A stretch of DNA of 64,000 nucleotides from Rhizobium sp. NFR03 (GTDB taxonomy: Bacteria > Pseudomonadota > Alphaproteobacteria > Rhizobiales > Rhizobiaceae). The stretch is from positions 248,001 through 312,000 of the forward strand of contig NZ_FOGR01000005.1 of the NCBI RefSeq assembly GCF_900111275.1, written 5' to 3'. Below are positions 22,990-47,131 of the stretch, one piece after another (positions within the stretch are counted from its first letter, which is position 1; each line of letters opens with the position of its first letter). The position numbers and the translations under genes are program-made. Under the pieces are notes generated by a model. That model saw nothing but the letters and a program-made list of their open reading frames with translations. It ran no database searches and was not told where the DNA came from.

Positions 22990-23006
22990 TTAAACGACCT
23001 TTAACC
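22990..23006 (+). promoter_or_regulatory. Perfect CtrA-type box before Omp25-like gene 1
   Basis: TTAA-N7-TTAACC matches the full CtrA consensus and lies 84 bases before the ATG of the barrel protein at 23090. Confidence 0.6.
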
Positions 23007-24456: not shown

Positions 24457-24475
24457 TTAACGCACCATTAACCAT
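24457..24475 (+). promoter_or_regulatory. Perfect CtrA-type box before Omp25-like gene 2
   Basis: TTAA-N7-TTAACCAT, an exact consensus match with the extended CCAT tail, begins 101 bases before the ATG at 24558. A further GTTAAC lies 15 bases downstream. Confidence 0.62.
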
Positions 24476-41285: not shown

Positions 41286-42017
41286 TCAGATGATTTTCAG
41301 CCGCATCGCCCGGGCGATAGCCTGCATGCGGTTGACGGCATCGAGCTTGCGGGCGGCGGTCTTGAAATAGCTGCTGACAGTATAGGCGGAGATGCCGAGG
41401 ATGATCGCGATCTCATCGCTGCTCTTGCCGGCAGCGGCCCAGCGGAGGCATTCGATCTCGCGGGCAGAGAGTTTTTCGCGTGTGGAGACGCCAGCGTCCA
41501 TGGCGCGCTCCAACCGCTCGAACAGCTGGAGCAGGACGTAATAGAGCTCCGCCGCCTCGATGCCTTCCGGCGCATCGCGGCTGCCGGACAGCGTGACGAT
41601 GAACGGATCCGCATAGGTCGTGTGCAACAGGACCGCGAGAGTGAAGGCCATGGACGGCGCGATTTCGACGGCGGTCACGGGTTTGCCGCGAAGGCCAAGA
41701 AGGGTGGCCGTCTCTTTGAAGACAGGGAGCTTGGTGTGGCGCAGTTCCTCCACCAGGCGGCTTAGCCGGAAGATGTCCAGCGCATCGTAGCCCCGCACCA
41801 GATCGGCGGGCCAGCTGCTGACGACGAGGCGTTCGGAGAAGTTCTGCTGGTCACCGGCGGGAACGCGAACGATCATGAAATTGTCGAAGCCGAATTCGGC
41901 AGCGCATTGCCGCATGAGGCGCAGGACCTCGTATTCCGTCTGGACGGAGGACGTATCCGCGGTCGGGAAAAGCAGGTTCGATTTGCTGCTTCTCACCGTT
42001 TCATCGACATCAGGCAT
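41286..42017 (-). CDS. LuxR-family transcriptional regulator with N-terminal ligand-binding domain
   Basis: The 243-residue protein pairs an N-terminal domain of autoinducer-binding type (FGFDNFMIVRVPAGD near residue 50) with a C-terminal LuxR helix-turn-helix (LSAREIECLRWAAAGKSSDE with the ISAYTVSSYFKTAARKL recognition helix). I see no LuxI synthase nearby, so it is an orphan of the LuxR-solo or Vis type. I chose the ATG at 42017. It is divergent from sciP, across a gap of over 600 bases. Confidence 0.85.
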   Translation of the reverse strand: MPDVDETVRSSKSNLLFPTADTSSVQTEYEVLRLMRQCAAEFGFDNFMIVRVPAGDQQNFSERLVVSSWPADLVRGYDALDIFRLSRLVEELRHTKLPVFKETATLLGLRGKPVTAVEIAPSMAFTLAVLLHTTYADPFIVTLSGSRDAPEGIEAAELYYVLLQLFERLERAMDAGVSTREKLSAREIECLRWAAAGKSSDEIAIILGISAYTVSSYFKTAARKLDAVNRMQAIARAMRLKII

Positions 42018-42651
42018 AGCGTTTTCACCACTGCCGGCTCGGCCGGCTCCTTGTTTCCGCGTCCTTCCGCCTGCAAATGAAACGGTCTCGCTGCACGTCC
42101 GGCGTCTCGTCCTCATCGGGCGGGCATGCCGGGCGGCATCGGGACGTACAGTCTACCGGAAAAACGATATGATGGCACCCTGGGGATGCGCATGCTGTAA
42201 ATCTCTCAGCCCGTGCCGGGCCGGAGGCTCATATCCTGCAGTTTTTTTGACGTTACCGGCCCCCGGGACGGTGTTTCAGCCTCTTCCGAGGCCTTGTCAC
42301 GCCAAAAAATGAGCCCGACGCCAGCTGCAGACACGCCGCATGCCCCTGCATCGCGCCGACTTGTATGAAAATCTTACAAAAATTCCTACCCGCTCCCTGC
42401 GCATGGCAGCTATGCGGCAGGGAACCCGTAGAATGCAGGATTCCCGCGGCTTTGCGGTGTGCAAGGGCCTGATGCAATCGCCGCTTGATGTCGTGTTTGC
42501 AGGCGGAAACGGCTCTTCTTTCCGCGTTGCAGGAGGCCTTTGCGGCAAGTCATTCGAATGATGGATAAATTGTGTTGTCGAGCTTAGGCAAATCTTAAAT
42601 GTGGCAAGCTAGGCTCTCCGAATATGGTCTTGAGTATGTGTAGAGAGTCCA
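42018..42651. other. Gene-free 634-base region between LuxR gene and sciP
   Basis: No frame here looks like a real protein. The right end holds a CtrA-type box and a GANTC site just before sciP; the middle has several short GC-rich hairpins (for example GCCTC near 42280 opposite GAGGC) that could belong to a small RNA. No T-run confirms one. Confidence 0.5.
42584..42598 (+). promoter_or_regulatory. CtrA-like box upstream of sciP
   Basis: TTAG-N7-TTAA, one mismatch from consensus, 54 bases before the sciP ATG. A GAGTC (GANTC, CcrM methylation site) lies three bases before the ATG. In Caulobacter sciP is activated by CtrA. Confidence 0.5.
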
Positions 42652-42927
42652 ATGACCGAAATGGTACGACCCCGCGTGAAGTATGTCATCGGCCCGGATG
42701 GCAGCCCACTGACGATTGCCGATCTTCCCCCGGCGAACACGCGGCGCTGGGTGATTAGACGGAAGGCAGAAGTGGTTGCAGCCGTTCGCGGCGGGCTGCT
42801 GAGCCTTGAAGAGGCCTGTGAGCGGTATACGCTGACGGTCGAGGAATTTCTGTCCTGGCAGGCTTCGATCAACGATCATGGTCTTGCAGGACTGCGCACG
42901 ACGCGTATCCAGCAATATCGCCACTGA
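42652..42927 (+). CDS. sciP: CtrA inhibitor SciP (DUF1153)
   Basis: SciP is a small helix-turn-helix protein that binds CtrA on DNA and blocks RNA polymerase recruitment in G1 cells. The 91-residue product is a near full-length match to the family: RPRVKYVIGPDGSPLTIADL, RRKAEVVAAVRGGLLSLEEA and the terminal GLAGLRTTRIQQYR. Its position two genes from ctrA is typical in Rhizobiales. A CtrA-type box upstream suggests it is itself CtrA-controlled, forming a negative loop. Confidence 0.93.
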   Translation: MTEMVRPRVKYVIGPDGSPLTIADLPPANTRRWVIRRKAEVVAAVRGGLLSLEEACERYTLTVEEFLSWQASINDHGLAGLRTTRIQQYRH

Positions 42928-43318: not shown

Positions 43319-43669
43319 TCAGGCGCGCAACCGCACGAGACCGTCGCGTTCTTCGAGTGCGGAGGCTTTGGCGAATTCGGCCTGGACTTCTTCCAGAGCG
43401 AGTTCGGCGGCGTCCTGCTGGACTTTCAGTTCCCGAACCGACACCTGCAGATTGTCGGCCCGCTGGCGGGCCGCCTTGGCAAATGTCGGATAGGCAAAAT
43501 GGGACGGATCCGAAATGCCAGACTTTTTCTCCTCGAATGCGATCTGATGCTCCAAATCCTTGGTCATCCTTTCGAATTCGGTCATCATCATCTGAAGCTG
43601 CTTCAGTTGACGCTGTTTGTCCTTCACCTGAAATTCCTTCAGGCGGACAAGGCTCTCACGTGACTTCAT
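43319..43669 (-). CDS. FliJ-like flagellar export chaperone
   Basis: The 116-residue protein is almost entirely alpha-helical coiled coil (ESLVRLKEFQVKDKQRQLKQ start; RADNLQVSVRELKVQQDAAE centre), matching the FliJ family of flagellar export stalk/chaperone proteins in length and heptad pattern. No flagellar genes surround it. A FliJ-like gene next to ctrA recurs in Rhizobiales, so a cell-cycle-linked expression is plausible. I chose the ATG at 43669, preceded by GGGAG. Confidence 0.78.
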   Translation of the reverse strand: MKSRESLVRLKEFQVKDKQRQLKQLQMMMTEFERMTKDLEHQIAFEEKKSGISDPSHFAYPTFAKAARQRADNLQVSVRELKVQQDAAELALEEVQAEFAKASALEERDGLVRLRA

Positions 43670-44115
43670 ACGCAATACTCCCGCGGTGCGAGACCCGGCA
43701 TCTCACTTGCAACCCTTACCGATGGCTCATGCCTTCGGCTCCGCGAAAAAACCCCAGTGATATTAACAAATGCCTACCGCTGGTAACGTTTCGTTTACGG
43801 GCATAGTTAATCCTAGGGACGATCATTTAAGGCCCGGTAAATGGCCAACGCGAAATACGACGCTTTGGTCTTTTGGCGAGTCTCTGGAATCCGATAGAGC
43901 TGTTCGCTCACTTCAAAGGTGAGAAAGCGGGTTTATCAAAAGCAAACGAAATCAAGGGGCTGAGAAAAATATTTAACAAATGCTGTGCACCTTGCCAGAG
44001 GGAATCAGAATTTGTTAACCATTTGGTGGCAAGCTCCAAATCAGGCAACGACTGGATCCGTTTAGCGTCAGGCAGCCTTGCACTACCTTTCGGCGGCGGA
44101 AAAGGGGACAAAAAC
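43670..44115. other. ctrA upstream control region
   Basis: This 446-base region divides fliJ-like (minus) from ctrA (plus). GANTC methylation sites occur at 43878-43882, 43887-43891 and 44002-44006, and a CtrA-type half-site TTAACCAT at 44015-44022. Several short frames exist but are AT-rich and lack ribosome sites. The layout resembles Caulobacter ctrA, whose early promoter is methylation-sensitive and whose later one is autoregulated. Confidence 0.55.
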
Positions 44116-44814
44116 ATGCGGGTTCTGCTTATCGAGGACGACAGCGCGACAGCGCAGAGCATCGAATTGATGCTCAAGTCCGAGAGTTTCAATGTGTACA
44201 CCACCGATCTCGGTGAAGAGGGCGTCGATCTCGGCAAACTCTACGACTACGACATCATTCTGCTGGACCTCAACCTGCCCGACATGTCGGGCTATGAGGT
44301 GCTCCGGACCCTTCGCCTCTCCAAGGTGAAGACCCCGATCCTCATCCTCTCCGGCATGGCCGGCATCGAGGACAAGGTTCGCGGCTTGGGCTTCGGTGCG
44401 GACGACTACATGACCAAGCCGTTCCACAAGGACGAGCTTGTGGCGCGCATCCATGCGATCGTTCGCCGCTCCAAGGGTCATGCCCAGTCCGTTATTTCGA
44501 CCGGCGAGCTGATCGTCAACCTGGATGCAAAGACCGTCGAAGTCGGCGGACAGCGCGTTCACCTGACGGGCAAGGAATACCAGATGCTGGAGCTGCTTTC
44601 GCTCCGCAAGGGTACGACCCTGACCAAGGAAATGTTCCTGAACCACCTTTACGGCGGTATGGACGAGCCGGAACTGAAGATTATCGACGTCTTCATCTGC
44701 AAGCTGCGCAAGAAGCTCGCAAACGCTGCCGGCGGCGCAAACTACATCGAGACCGTCTGGGGCCGTGGCTACGTGCTGCGCGAACCGGAAGGCGATCTCG
44801 CCGAAAGCGCCTGA
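44116..44814 (+). CDS. ctrA: Cell cycle master response regulator CtrA
   Basis: CtrA is the OmpR-class regulator that controls DNA replication, division and envelope genes in alphaproteobacteria. The 232-residue protein has the acidic pocket (IEDD), acceptor Asp-51 in [11 protein letters not shown], the KPF switch lysine, and a C-terminal winged helix ([28 protein letters not shown]). Length is that of Caulobacter CtrA. I chose the ATG at 44116, the family N-terminus. The C-terminal end lacks an obvious degradation tag beyond the short AESA-type tail, a feature worth noting. Confidence 0.96.
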
Positions 44815-44954: not shown

Positions 44955-44981
44955 AAAAAGGCCGCCTTGCGGGCGGCCTTT
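44955..44981 (-). terminator. Terminator serving the receiver gene on the minus strand
   Basis: AAAAAGGCCGCC / GGCGGCCTTT stem; read on the minus strand it ends in a T-run, so it faces the convergent receiver gene that ends at 45026. Confidence 0.82.
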
Positions 44982-45025: not shown

Positions 45026-45388
45026 TCAGGCAGCTGCGGCGTAGGCGGCGAAGACGCTGGTGAGGATTTTCCGGTCGAATGGCTTCAGCAGGAAGTCGTC
45101 GGCACCGGCACGCTTGCCCGCCATCATCTTGCGCAGATCCGCCTCGATGACGCAGTAATAGATACGAACGGATTTGCCTTCGGACATCACGCGAATGTTC
45201 GCGATCAGCTCCAGCGCGCCATCCAGGCCCGCATCGACGATGATGATGTTGGGAAGCTCGGCTTCGCAGCGCGCCAGCGCCTCAAGGCCATTGGCGGCTT
45301 CCGAGACGAGAAAGCCCATGCCGGAGAGGATGCGCTTTCCGACCTTGCGCACCACGTCGGAGTCGTCGGCGATCATCAAGCGCTGCAT
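45026..45388 (-). CDS. Divergent single-domain response regulator
   Basis: The 120-residue product is a stand-alone receiver: acid pair Asp-8/Asp-9, acceptor Asp-52 in IIIVDAGLDG and switch Lys-102 in FLLKPFDRK. The usual Thr/Ser that relays phosphorylation is replaced by Cys-79 (IYYCVIEAD), and the loop lacks the standard Pro. It is encoded on the same strand downstream of chpT, 209 bases away, so it may receive phosphate from ChpT. It resembles DivK and CpdR only at fold level. I chose the ATG at 45388, preceded by AGGAG. Confidence 0.82.
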   Translation of the reverse strand: MQRLMIADDSDVVRKVGKRILSGMGFLVSEAANGLEALARCEAELPNIIIVDAGLDGALELIANIRVMSEGKSVRIYYCVIEADLRKMMAGKRAGADDFLLKPFDRKILTSVFAAYAAAA

Positions 45389-45597
45389 GGAGCTCCTAGC
45401 CCTTTCATTCCCGTGAACAGAAGACCTCGATGCCAGGCCGCTGGCGGATATCCGCCCCGGCGCTGCATCAACGTCCAGTTGCGCACCCCTGCGATCTGGC
45501 ACGCCAGGTCGCAGGTGTATGCTCGTCTCGGGAGTATAAGGCGCCTTTGGCAAACAAACCGTTACCGGAGCGACGAAGAATGGCGGCGACGACGCTC

Positions 45598-46380: not shown

Positions 46381-46395
46381 TAAACCAATTGTTAA
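46381..46395. promoter_or_regulatory. CtrA-like box upstream of the eipA-like gene
   Basis: TAAA-N7-TTAA, one mismatch from the core consensus, 100 bases before the ATG. In Brucella the eipA promoter is bound by CtrA. Confidence 0.45.
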
Positions 46396-46495: not shown

Positions 46496-47131
46496 ATGCT
46501 GCAGAAATCGAATTTTGCGCCCTCGAGGGACGTTGCCATGTGCCTTCCGCTGGCCGCCCTGTGGTCTTCTATGAAAGCCGTCATGTTCGGCATGCTGGCG
46601 CTCTGTGTCGGGGTTTCGACCGCCGCCGCGCAAGCCGCCGGCAATACGTCTCAATATTCCATCCAGGAAATCGTGGATGCGGGACATGGGTTCTTCGGGT
46701 CCACGTCCGGCGGTCTTGCGAAAGTGGTGGAGCGGGCCTTCCAGAGTTACGGGCTTCCGAACGGCTATATTCTCGGACAGGAAGGCTCTGGCGCCTTCGT
46801 TGCCGGGCTGACCTATGGTGAGGGAAGCCTGAACACCAAGAATGCCGGTCAGCACAGTGTCTACTGGCAAGGTCCCTCGCTCGGTCTCGATGCAGGCGGT
46901 CAGGGCAGCCGCATCATGATGCTGGTCTATAACCTCCCGAGCGTGCCCGGCCTTTACAAGCGGTTCGGTGGCGTCTCCGGTTCGGCCTATGTCGTGGCCG
47001 GCGTCGGCATGACGGTGCTGACGGACGAGCATATCGTGCTCGTCCCTATTCGAACCGGCGTCGGCGCCCGCCTCGGCATTAATGTGGGCTACCTCAAGCT
47101 GACGCAGCAGCCGACATGGAACCCCTTCTGA
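46496..47131 (+). CDS. EipA-like envelope integrity protein (DUF1134)
   Basis: The 211-residue product has a signal-type N-terminus and a DUF1134 barrel-like domain (QEIVDAGHGFFGSTSGG, then GQEGSGAFVAGLTYGEG and GVGMTVL). In Brucella this protein, EipA, is periplasmic and required for cell-envelope integrity, and its gene is CtrA-regulated. I chose the ATG at 46496, which follows GGAGG. It is divergent from chpT across 256 bases. Confidence 0.85.
   Translation: MLQKSNFAPSRDVAMCLPLAALWSSMKAVMFGMLALCVGVSTAAAQAAGNTSQYSIQEIVDAGHGFFGSTSGGLAKVVERAFQSYGLPNGYILGQEGSGAFVAGLTYGEGSLNTKNAGQHSVYWQGPSLGLDAGGQGSRIMMLVYNLPSVPGLYKRFGGVSGSAYVVAGVGMTVLTDEHIVLVPIRTGVGARLGINVGYLKLTQQPTWNPF

Follow-up and report, generated by a model that had tools for sequence, protein, structure and literature searches.

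What is a single-domain receiver without Thr or Ser at its switch position doing between chpT and ctrA? The question is raised by a stretch of 64,000 nucleotides from Rhizobium sp. NFR03 (the window; contig NZ_FOGR01000005.1, positions 248,001 to 312,000), in which such a gene lies beside two genes of the CckA-ChpT-CtrA relay. Here, the protein is identified as an atypical single-domain receiver variant that is explained by operon loss. Judged by its place and sequence family, the gene appears to be all that remains of a chemotaxis operon which formerly stood between the two cell-cycle genes. The odd switch residue is attributed to the loss of the che operon from this locus, a history that was invisible to the initial annotation, which was made from the letters of the window.

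The receiver gene and its switch position

The initial annotation described a receiver encoded at 45026-45388 next to chpT and gave no strand. The gene is confirmed, on the minus strand with a product of 120 amino acids, as is the adjacency of chpT, which scores above the NCBIfam cut-off; ctrA adjoins the receiver as well. By open frames the receiver lies 213 bases from chpT and 215 bases from ctrA, and no che gene was found between chpT and ctrA in the window. The features of the locus are as follows.

44116..44814, plus strand: ctrA, downstream of and convergent with the receiver (NCBIfam NF045991, 425.3 bits, cut-off 350; its start was set where the model match begins)
44955..44978, minus strand: GC-rich inverted repeat followed by a T run, terminator-like, 3' of the receiver (by eye)
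45026..45388 including the stop, minus strand: receiver, an orphan CheY-like single-domain protein of 120 aa (ORF, translation, Pfam, synteny)
45083..45085, minus strand: codon of Lys-102 (translation, alignment)
45110..45115, minus strand: codons for Lys-92 and Arg-93, two adjacent basic residues found in orphan copies only (alignment)
45149..45151, minus strand: codon of Val-80, the switch position at Lys minus 22 (translation, alignment register)
45152..45154, minus strand: codon of Cys-79, the ancestral Cys preceding the switch, misread as the switch (translation, alignment)
45218..45232, minus strand: residues 53-57, forming the beta3-alpha3 loop; operon copies have two residues more here and the conserved W-N-M-P, which the window protein has lost (alignment)
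45233..45235, minus strand: codon of the acceptor Asp-52 (translation, alignment)
45362..45367, minus strand: codons of Asp-8 and Asp-9 (translation, alignment)
45393..45397, minus strand: AGGAG, likely ribosome binding site before the receiver ATG (by eye)
45561..45574, minus strand: putative Clr site, matching the core GTNNCNNNNGNNAC and placed 186 bases upstream of the receiver start codon (motif as given in PMC10127613)
45598..46239, minus strand: chpT, upstream of the receiver on the same strand (NCBIfam NF046018, 297.6 bits, cut-off 240)

The product matches Pfam Response_reg (PF00072) over residues 5-111 with 56.8 bits (cut-off 30.2). AlphaFold2 predicts a receiver fold, the best of five models having a pLDDT of 88.3 and a pTM of 0.82 and the other four scoring 63 to 42, and structure comparison of the model with solved receivers gave Z up to 18.5. 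NCBIfam supplies no curated name for the protein, none of the 25 families listed (68 matching) reaching its cut-off.

Cys-79 had been read as standing at the position where Thr or Ser relays phosphorylation. The absence of Thr/Ser from the switch of the window protein stands, but the Cys lies one residue before that position. In all 169 aligned homologues the conserved Lys follows the switch column by exactly 22 residues. Counted back from the Lys in this way, the window's CtrA has Ser at the switch, 7/7 other receivers inspected in the genome have Thr or Ser, and the window receiver has Val-80. Cys-79 is ruled out as the switch residue by this register. The predominant motif of operon-linked relatives is C-T-T-E-N-D (Cys in 103/104, switch Thr in 101 and Ser in 3 of 104), and the relative L019 carries CTIETD, with Cys and switch Thr side by side. 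Cys-79 is thus the ancestral Cys that precedes the switch and not a substitute for it. The alignment that the annotation had proposed as a check gave a divided result: Thr/Ser fills the switch column of 104/104 operon copies, against the annotation, and of 14/64 orphans, while the retention of Asp-52 in 55/64 orphans speaks for it.

A redox-sensitive protein, another suggestion of the annotation, would sense through Cys-79. This Cys is invariant in 80/80 near loci (the best 80 of the 281 named, counted apart from the linked and orphan copies); however, it is equally the Cys of the 103 operon copies, which keep Thr/Ser at the switch, and it is missing from 20/64 orphans. Cys-79 also falls within strand 4 of the AlphaFold2 model, which ends at residue 80, suggesting that its side chain would be buried. 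A redox role thus finds no support and is hardly credible.

A locked state is plausible, owing to Val-80 at the switch and not to Cys-79. A structural parallel is the CheY T87I variant (PDB 1vlz and 2id7; Z 17.1, among the 50 structural matches listed), in which the switch residue is likewise bulky and aliphatic, although these are laboratory mutants of a working CheY, unlike a natural Val-80 receiver. One of the structures carries a title that speaks of phosphorylation and activation being uncoupled.

Traces of a chemotaxis operon

Twenty homologues from the order and class were compared for gene content over 16 to 19 kb of surrounding sequence. CheA accompanies the receiver in 14/20, ChpT does so too in 12 of those 14, and CtrA in 10 of those 12; in each of the remaining 6/20 a lone receiver adjoins chpT, with ctrA in the region for five and absent in L189. 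Order and class alike contain repeated instances of chpT-cheA-cheW-cheY-cheB-cheR facing a convergent ctrA. A larger set comprised 104 che-linked copies and 64 orphans that have chpT and/or ctrA as neighbours but no che gene, a copy being called linked if its own strand carried at least one CheA/W/B/R match no more than 2.5 kb away; many loci were judged on 1.5-kb flanks. These counts derive from 187 loci, from which L081, another copy of the window gene, had already been left out: 23 loci of genomes already represented were dropped, L026, with no informative neighbours, was not assigned, and five eroded orphans (L245, L246, L248, L250, L251) were added, which came to light next to ChpT when the 18 family genomes with no receiver match were inspected. 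The sample takes in order-level matches in part, the best 30 class-level matches, and copies within the E-value limits.

The order chpT - receiver > < ctrA is found in 78/80 of the near loci and in 14/16 and 12/17 of other family loci, those outside the count having one or neither neighbour in the flank covered. The shared position between chpT and ctrA and the shared sequence family support the view that the window gene is orthologous to cheY in the chpT-cheA-cheW-cheY-cheB-cheR operon and has not moved from its ancestral position. The neighbours cheA, cheW, cheB and cheR are missing, and it is the operon copies that keep Thr/Ser at the switch, the D-W-N-M-P loop and their CheA.

The loss of the partner kinase was followed with the operon CheA of L176 as the query against seven family and six che-linked genomes. 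All six che-linked genomes gave matches at 52-74% identity. Four of the family genomes gave 33-39%; the window genome is one of these, with 33-34% at best, and thus holds no cognate CheA. No match was found at E<=1e-20 in G044, G036 or G128, all three of which have the receiver. The receiver may no longer be a chemotaxis protein.

The Caulobacter counterpart of the operon cheY is probably CC3471 ('CheYIV'), listed beside cheR CC3472 (PMC2529317). In NA1000 numbering chpT is CCNA_03584 (PMC7200025) and CCNA_03585 is a cheY receiver (PMC9648850); CC3471 and CCNA_03585 are presumably one gene. Deletion of CC3471 is reported solely in combination with 11 other cheY genes (PMC7534056). In Sinorhizobium meliloti, SMc00653 ('putative 2-component receiver domain protein') is the convergent neighbour of ctrA (PMC2780559) and is, by position and annotation, the S. 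meliloti orthologue of the receiver. The orthologue in strain 4H41 (L141) is 83% identical and has the same Val-80, although it carries Gly at residue 9 in place of the Asp-9 of the window receiver. No published account of the chpT-che-ctrA operon or of the orphan's origin was found in the open-licence literature searched; in Rhodospirillum rubrum ctrA, cckA and chpT are noted to be located with flagellar genes (PMC12363192). The locus also indicates that chemotaxis genes and the CckA-ChpT-CtrA relay are repeatedly associated in genomes.

The linked and orphan copies differ sharply in what they conserve. D8, D9, D52 and K102 are present in 104/104 linked copies, as is the switch Thr/Ser, whereas Thr/Ser has been lost from 50/64 orphans, in which the switch residue is Leu (21), Thr (13), Val (11), Ile (9), Met (5), Ala (4) or Ser (1). 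Asp-9 remains in 43 of the 64 and is lost in 21, residue 9 being neither Asp nor Glu in 13; Asp-52 is replaced in nine (Ala 4, Ser 3, Glu 2), while Lys-102 and Asp-8 are universal (64/64). The beta3-alpha3 loop is two residues shorter in 16/64, and both residues 92 and 93 are basic in 50/64 orphans vs 0/104 linked copies. With Asp or Glu allowed at residue 9 the quartet is complete in 45/64 orphans, and together with Thr/Ser in 14/64; phospho-chemistry in the orphans is therefore less constrained than in linked copies, yet not gone. By column, helix 1 (VxRKVxxRI), the AGA turn, KPF and Arg-106 are kept, and divergence is concentrated in the beta3-alpha3 loop, the end of the switch strand and helix 5, most of all in helix 5.

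Nearer to the window, Val-80, Asp-52, Lys-92, Arg-93 and Lys-102, like Cys-79, are present in 80/80 of the best 80 of 281 loci, among which the closest named records are from Rhizobiaceae (Rhizobium sp., Ferranicluibacter rubi) at 98% identity. The Asp pair, Asp-52 and Lys-102 that the annotation listed as retained are all present in the window protein, but for the pair this does not extend to most near relatives, where residue 9 is most often Gly (50 of these 80) and otherwise Asp (26), Glu (3) or Ser (1). At the other extreme, seven members of the same family between chpT and ctrA (L205, L206, L245, L246, L248, L250, L251) have exchanged the acceptor Asp for Ala or Ser and kept KPF; by these residues they would be pseudo-receivers.

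The 64 orphans are not independent, since linkage changes only four times on the best trees, two of these changes being forced by supported branches; trees of so short a protein resolve few forks. A second tree took 80 of the 168 assigned rows, with every fifth linked row and without five long-branched orphans. A paired test of linkage against switch residue had 2 to 4 usable pairs and was without power. On the second tree a family group of L025, L027, L029, L200 and L204 (tree support 90) has the basic pair with Thr still present, which suggests that the pair at 92-93 arose before Thr was lost, and six rows without the acceptor group together (tree support 100).

Receiver genes near the window are under purifying selection and are more than junk: compared with the window gene they have a median dN/dS of 0.10 (range 0.013-0.211, 79 finite values of the best 80 near loci of 281), and 1500 near pairs with dS between 0.2 and 1 give 0.11. 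The gene is present in the 1.5-Mb genome G044 (locus L023). A match at E<=1e-15 occurs in 43/61 family genomes; ChpT is encoded in 16 of the 18 others, five of these 16 having a strongly eroded receiver beside it. In the remaining 11/16 no receiver was found beside chpT within 1.5-kb flanks, so the job is dispensable.

Possible roles of the orphaned receiver

That the receiver has been conserved, though its partner kinase is lost and its switch partly given up, suggests a new job beside the cell-cycle relay. We tentatively favour, at a little under an even chance, an orphaned operon cheY that is now a non-switching docking receiver, with ChpT or CckA as its likeliest target. Synteny and alignment support the history behind this: the locus lost its che genes in the window's family, leaving cheY alone between chpT and ctrA, and the orphan lineage then lost the switch (Thr-80 to Val in the window) and had its beta3-alpha3 loop shortened. 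Many orphans also lost Asp-9 or the acceptor, with helix 1, AGA, KPF and Arg-106 staying and the basic pair at 92-93 appearing. A receiver that no longer switches would act by binding, through the face formed by helix 1 and beta5-alpha5. This is the face with which receivers dock on kinases and phosphotransferases, and it is the best-preserved part of the orphans. Its action would be largely without phosphorylation of its own, and ChpT or CckA is the likeliest partner because of the place of the gene and the precedents of Osp, acting on CckA, and FixT, acting on FixL. The intact quartet means that the window protein may be phosphorylated, possibly with no conformational output.

Both precedents are analogies. 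Osp of Rhodobacter sphaeroides, as described in PMC9430884, is receiver-like and single-domain, is tied to the CckA/ChpT/CtrA relay and inhibits CckA without phosphorylation; according to the same description its acid pair and Lys are missing, its gene has another location and is under activation by CtrA, and it has been reported from Rhodobacterales clades only. Membership of the window receiver in Osp is ruled out by D8, D9 and K102, present here against that description, and by the lack of a CtrA site upstream. FixT of S. meliloti and Caulobacter, a single-domain receiver that inhibits FixL while unphosphorylated (as told in PMC9430884), is set apart by its different partner and, by description, its missing acidic residues.

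Several observations weigh against docking. The quartet in 45/64 orphans, with Asp-52 in 55 and Lys-102 in all 64, is more than a plain binding protein needs; 14 orphans still have Thr/Ser, the independent events are few, the gene is dispensable and the gap holds no osp-like CtrA site. A more specific proposal, which we regard as doubtful, is that of a captured CheY serving as a non-switching adaptor on ChpT/CckA through helix 1, the KPF turn and the basic pair 92-93, throttling CtrA phosphorylation and having its level set by cAMP-Clr. Were it true, the grades of phospho-site erosion would be stages on the way from a signalling part to a plain binding protein. Somewhat less probable is the phosphate sink for ChpT that the annotation had offered, in which Asp-52 would take the phosphoryl group from ChpT and shed it unsignalled, draining the CckA-ChpT-CtrA relay, with Val-80 stopping output but not chemistry. 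The adjacent chpT, the intact Asp-8, Asp-9, Asp-52 and Lys-102 and the breadth of Asp-52 conservation, near and among orphans, make this conceivable for the window protein; it is not conserved across the orphans, however, the gene being retained where the acceptor is replaced (9/64) or residue 9 is neither Asp nor Glu (13/64), and Gly at residue 9 is the rule in the near loci.

Descent from an operon cheY also invites a role in motility, with the protein, unphosphorylated or fed by crosstalk, acting on the flagellar motor or the main CheA, as c-di-GMP-bound Cle acts on FliM in Caulobacter. The window genome does have other CheA genes (the 33-34% matches above), and Clr, the regulator of the S. 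meliloti orthologue, affects swimming (PMC10127613). Such a role is nonetheless unlikely: three genomes bear the receiver with no CheA match at the limit given, helix 5 is the most diverged part, and the C-terminal arginine-rich extension that follows the receiver in the Cle c-di-GMP effectors (PMC5677366), their hallmark, is absent, the 120-aa protein ending right after helix 5. Still less probable is a relic in slow decay, its selected role gone save for lineage-specific remnants. Progressive phospho-site loss and the ChpT-bearing family genomes with nothing beside chpT would fit such decay, but the low dN/dS near the window, the invariance of V80, K92, R93, D52 and K102 in the near loci and retention in a 1.5-Mb genome argue for selection.

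Whichever of these readings holds, the sampled linked copies keep the whole switch, and lone copies drift towards pseudo-receivers in the same genomic place. The orphan set thereby offers a natural series in which residues for phosphotransfer, switching and docking are set against each other.

Upstream sites and other neighbours

The Clr core motif lies 186 bases before the receiver start in the window and 90 bases before it in S. meliloti L141. Strict matches occur in 17/108 upstream gaps of related sequences (background 0.18 per kb), a patchy distribution. SMc00653 is a Clr-cAMP target in S. meliloti (PMC10127613), making it a candidate cAMP-responsive input near the CckA-ChpT-CtrA relay; it is also tabulated in a study on PhaR (PMC12542648).

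CtrA-like sites are found upstream of ctrA (43827-43841) and upstream of chpT (46381-46395), and a CtrA motif upstream of chpT is also reported in S. meliloti (PMC3616915). The chpT-receiver gap (45389-45597) contains no TTAA-N7-TTAA with up to one mismatch, and direct CtrA feedback on the receiver is ruled out by this absence. Over the whole window, a scan for the same pattern with at most one mismatch gave seven matches vs 1.73 expected, a number reached in 1/100 shuffles; besides the two sites named, there are perfect ones at 22990-23004 and 24457-24471 and three further sites.

Other genes nearby include a 91-aa DUF1153 protein upstream of ctrA (42652-42927, plus strand; Pfam 141.9 bits). 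In Caulobacter the small protein SciP, which inhibits CtrA, belongs to DUF1153, and sciP, ctrA, the receiver and chpT may stand together in the window. Divergent from ctrA is an ORF for a 118-aa coiled-coil-like protein (43319-43675, minus strand), FliJ-like by eye, with no Pfam match at E<=0.01. An EipA (envelope integrity protein A) family protein is encoded divergently from chpT at about 46520-47131 (plus strand; 241.7 bits), and a LuxR-type regulator lies at 41286-42116 on the minus strand, its autoinducer-binding domain scoring weakly (25.2 bits, cut-off 23).
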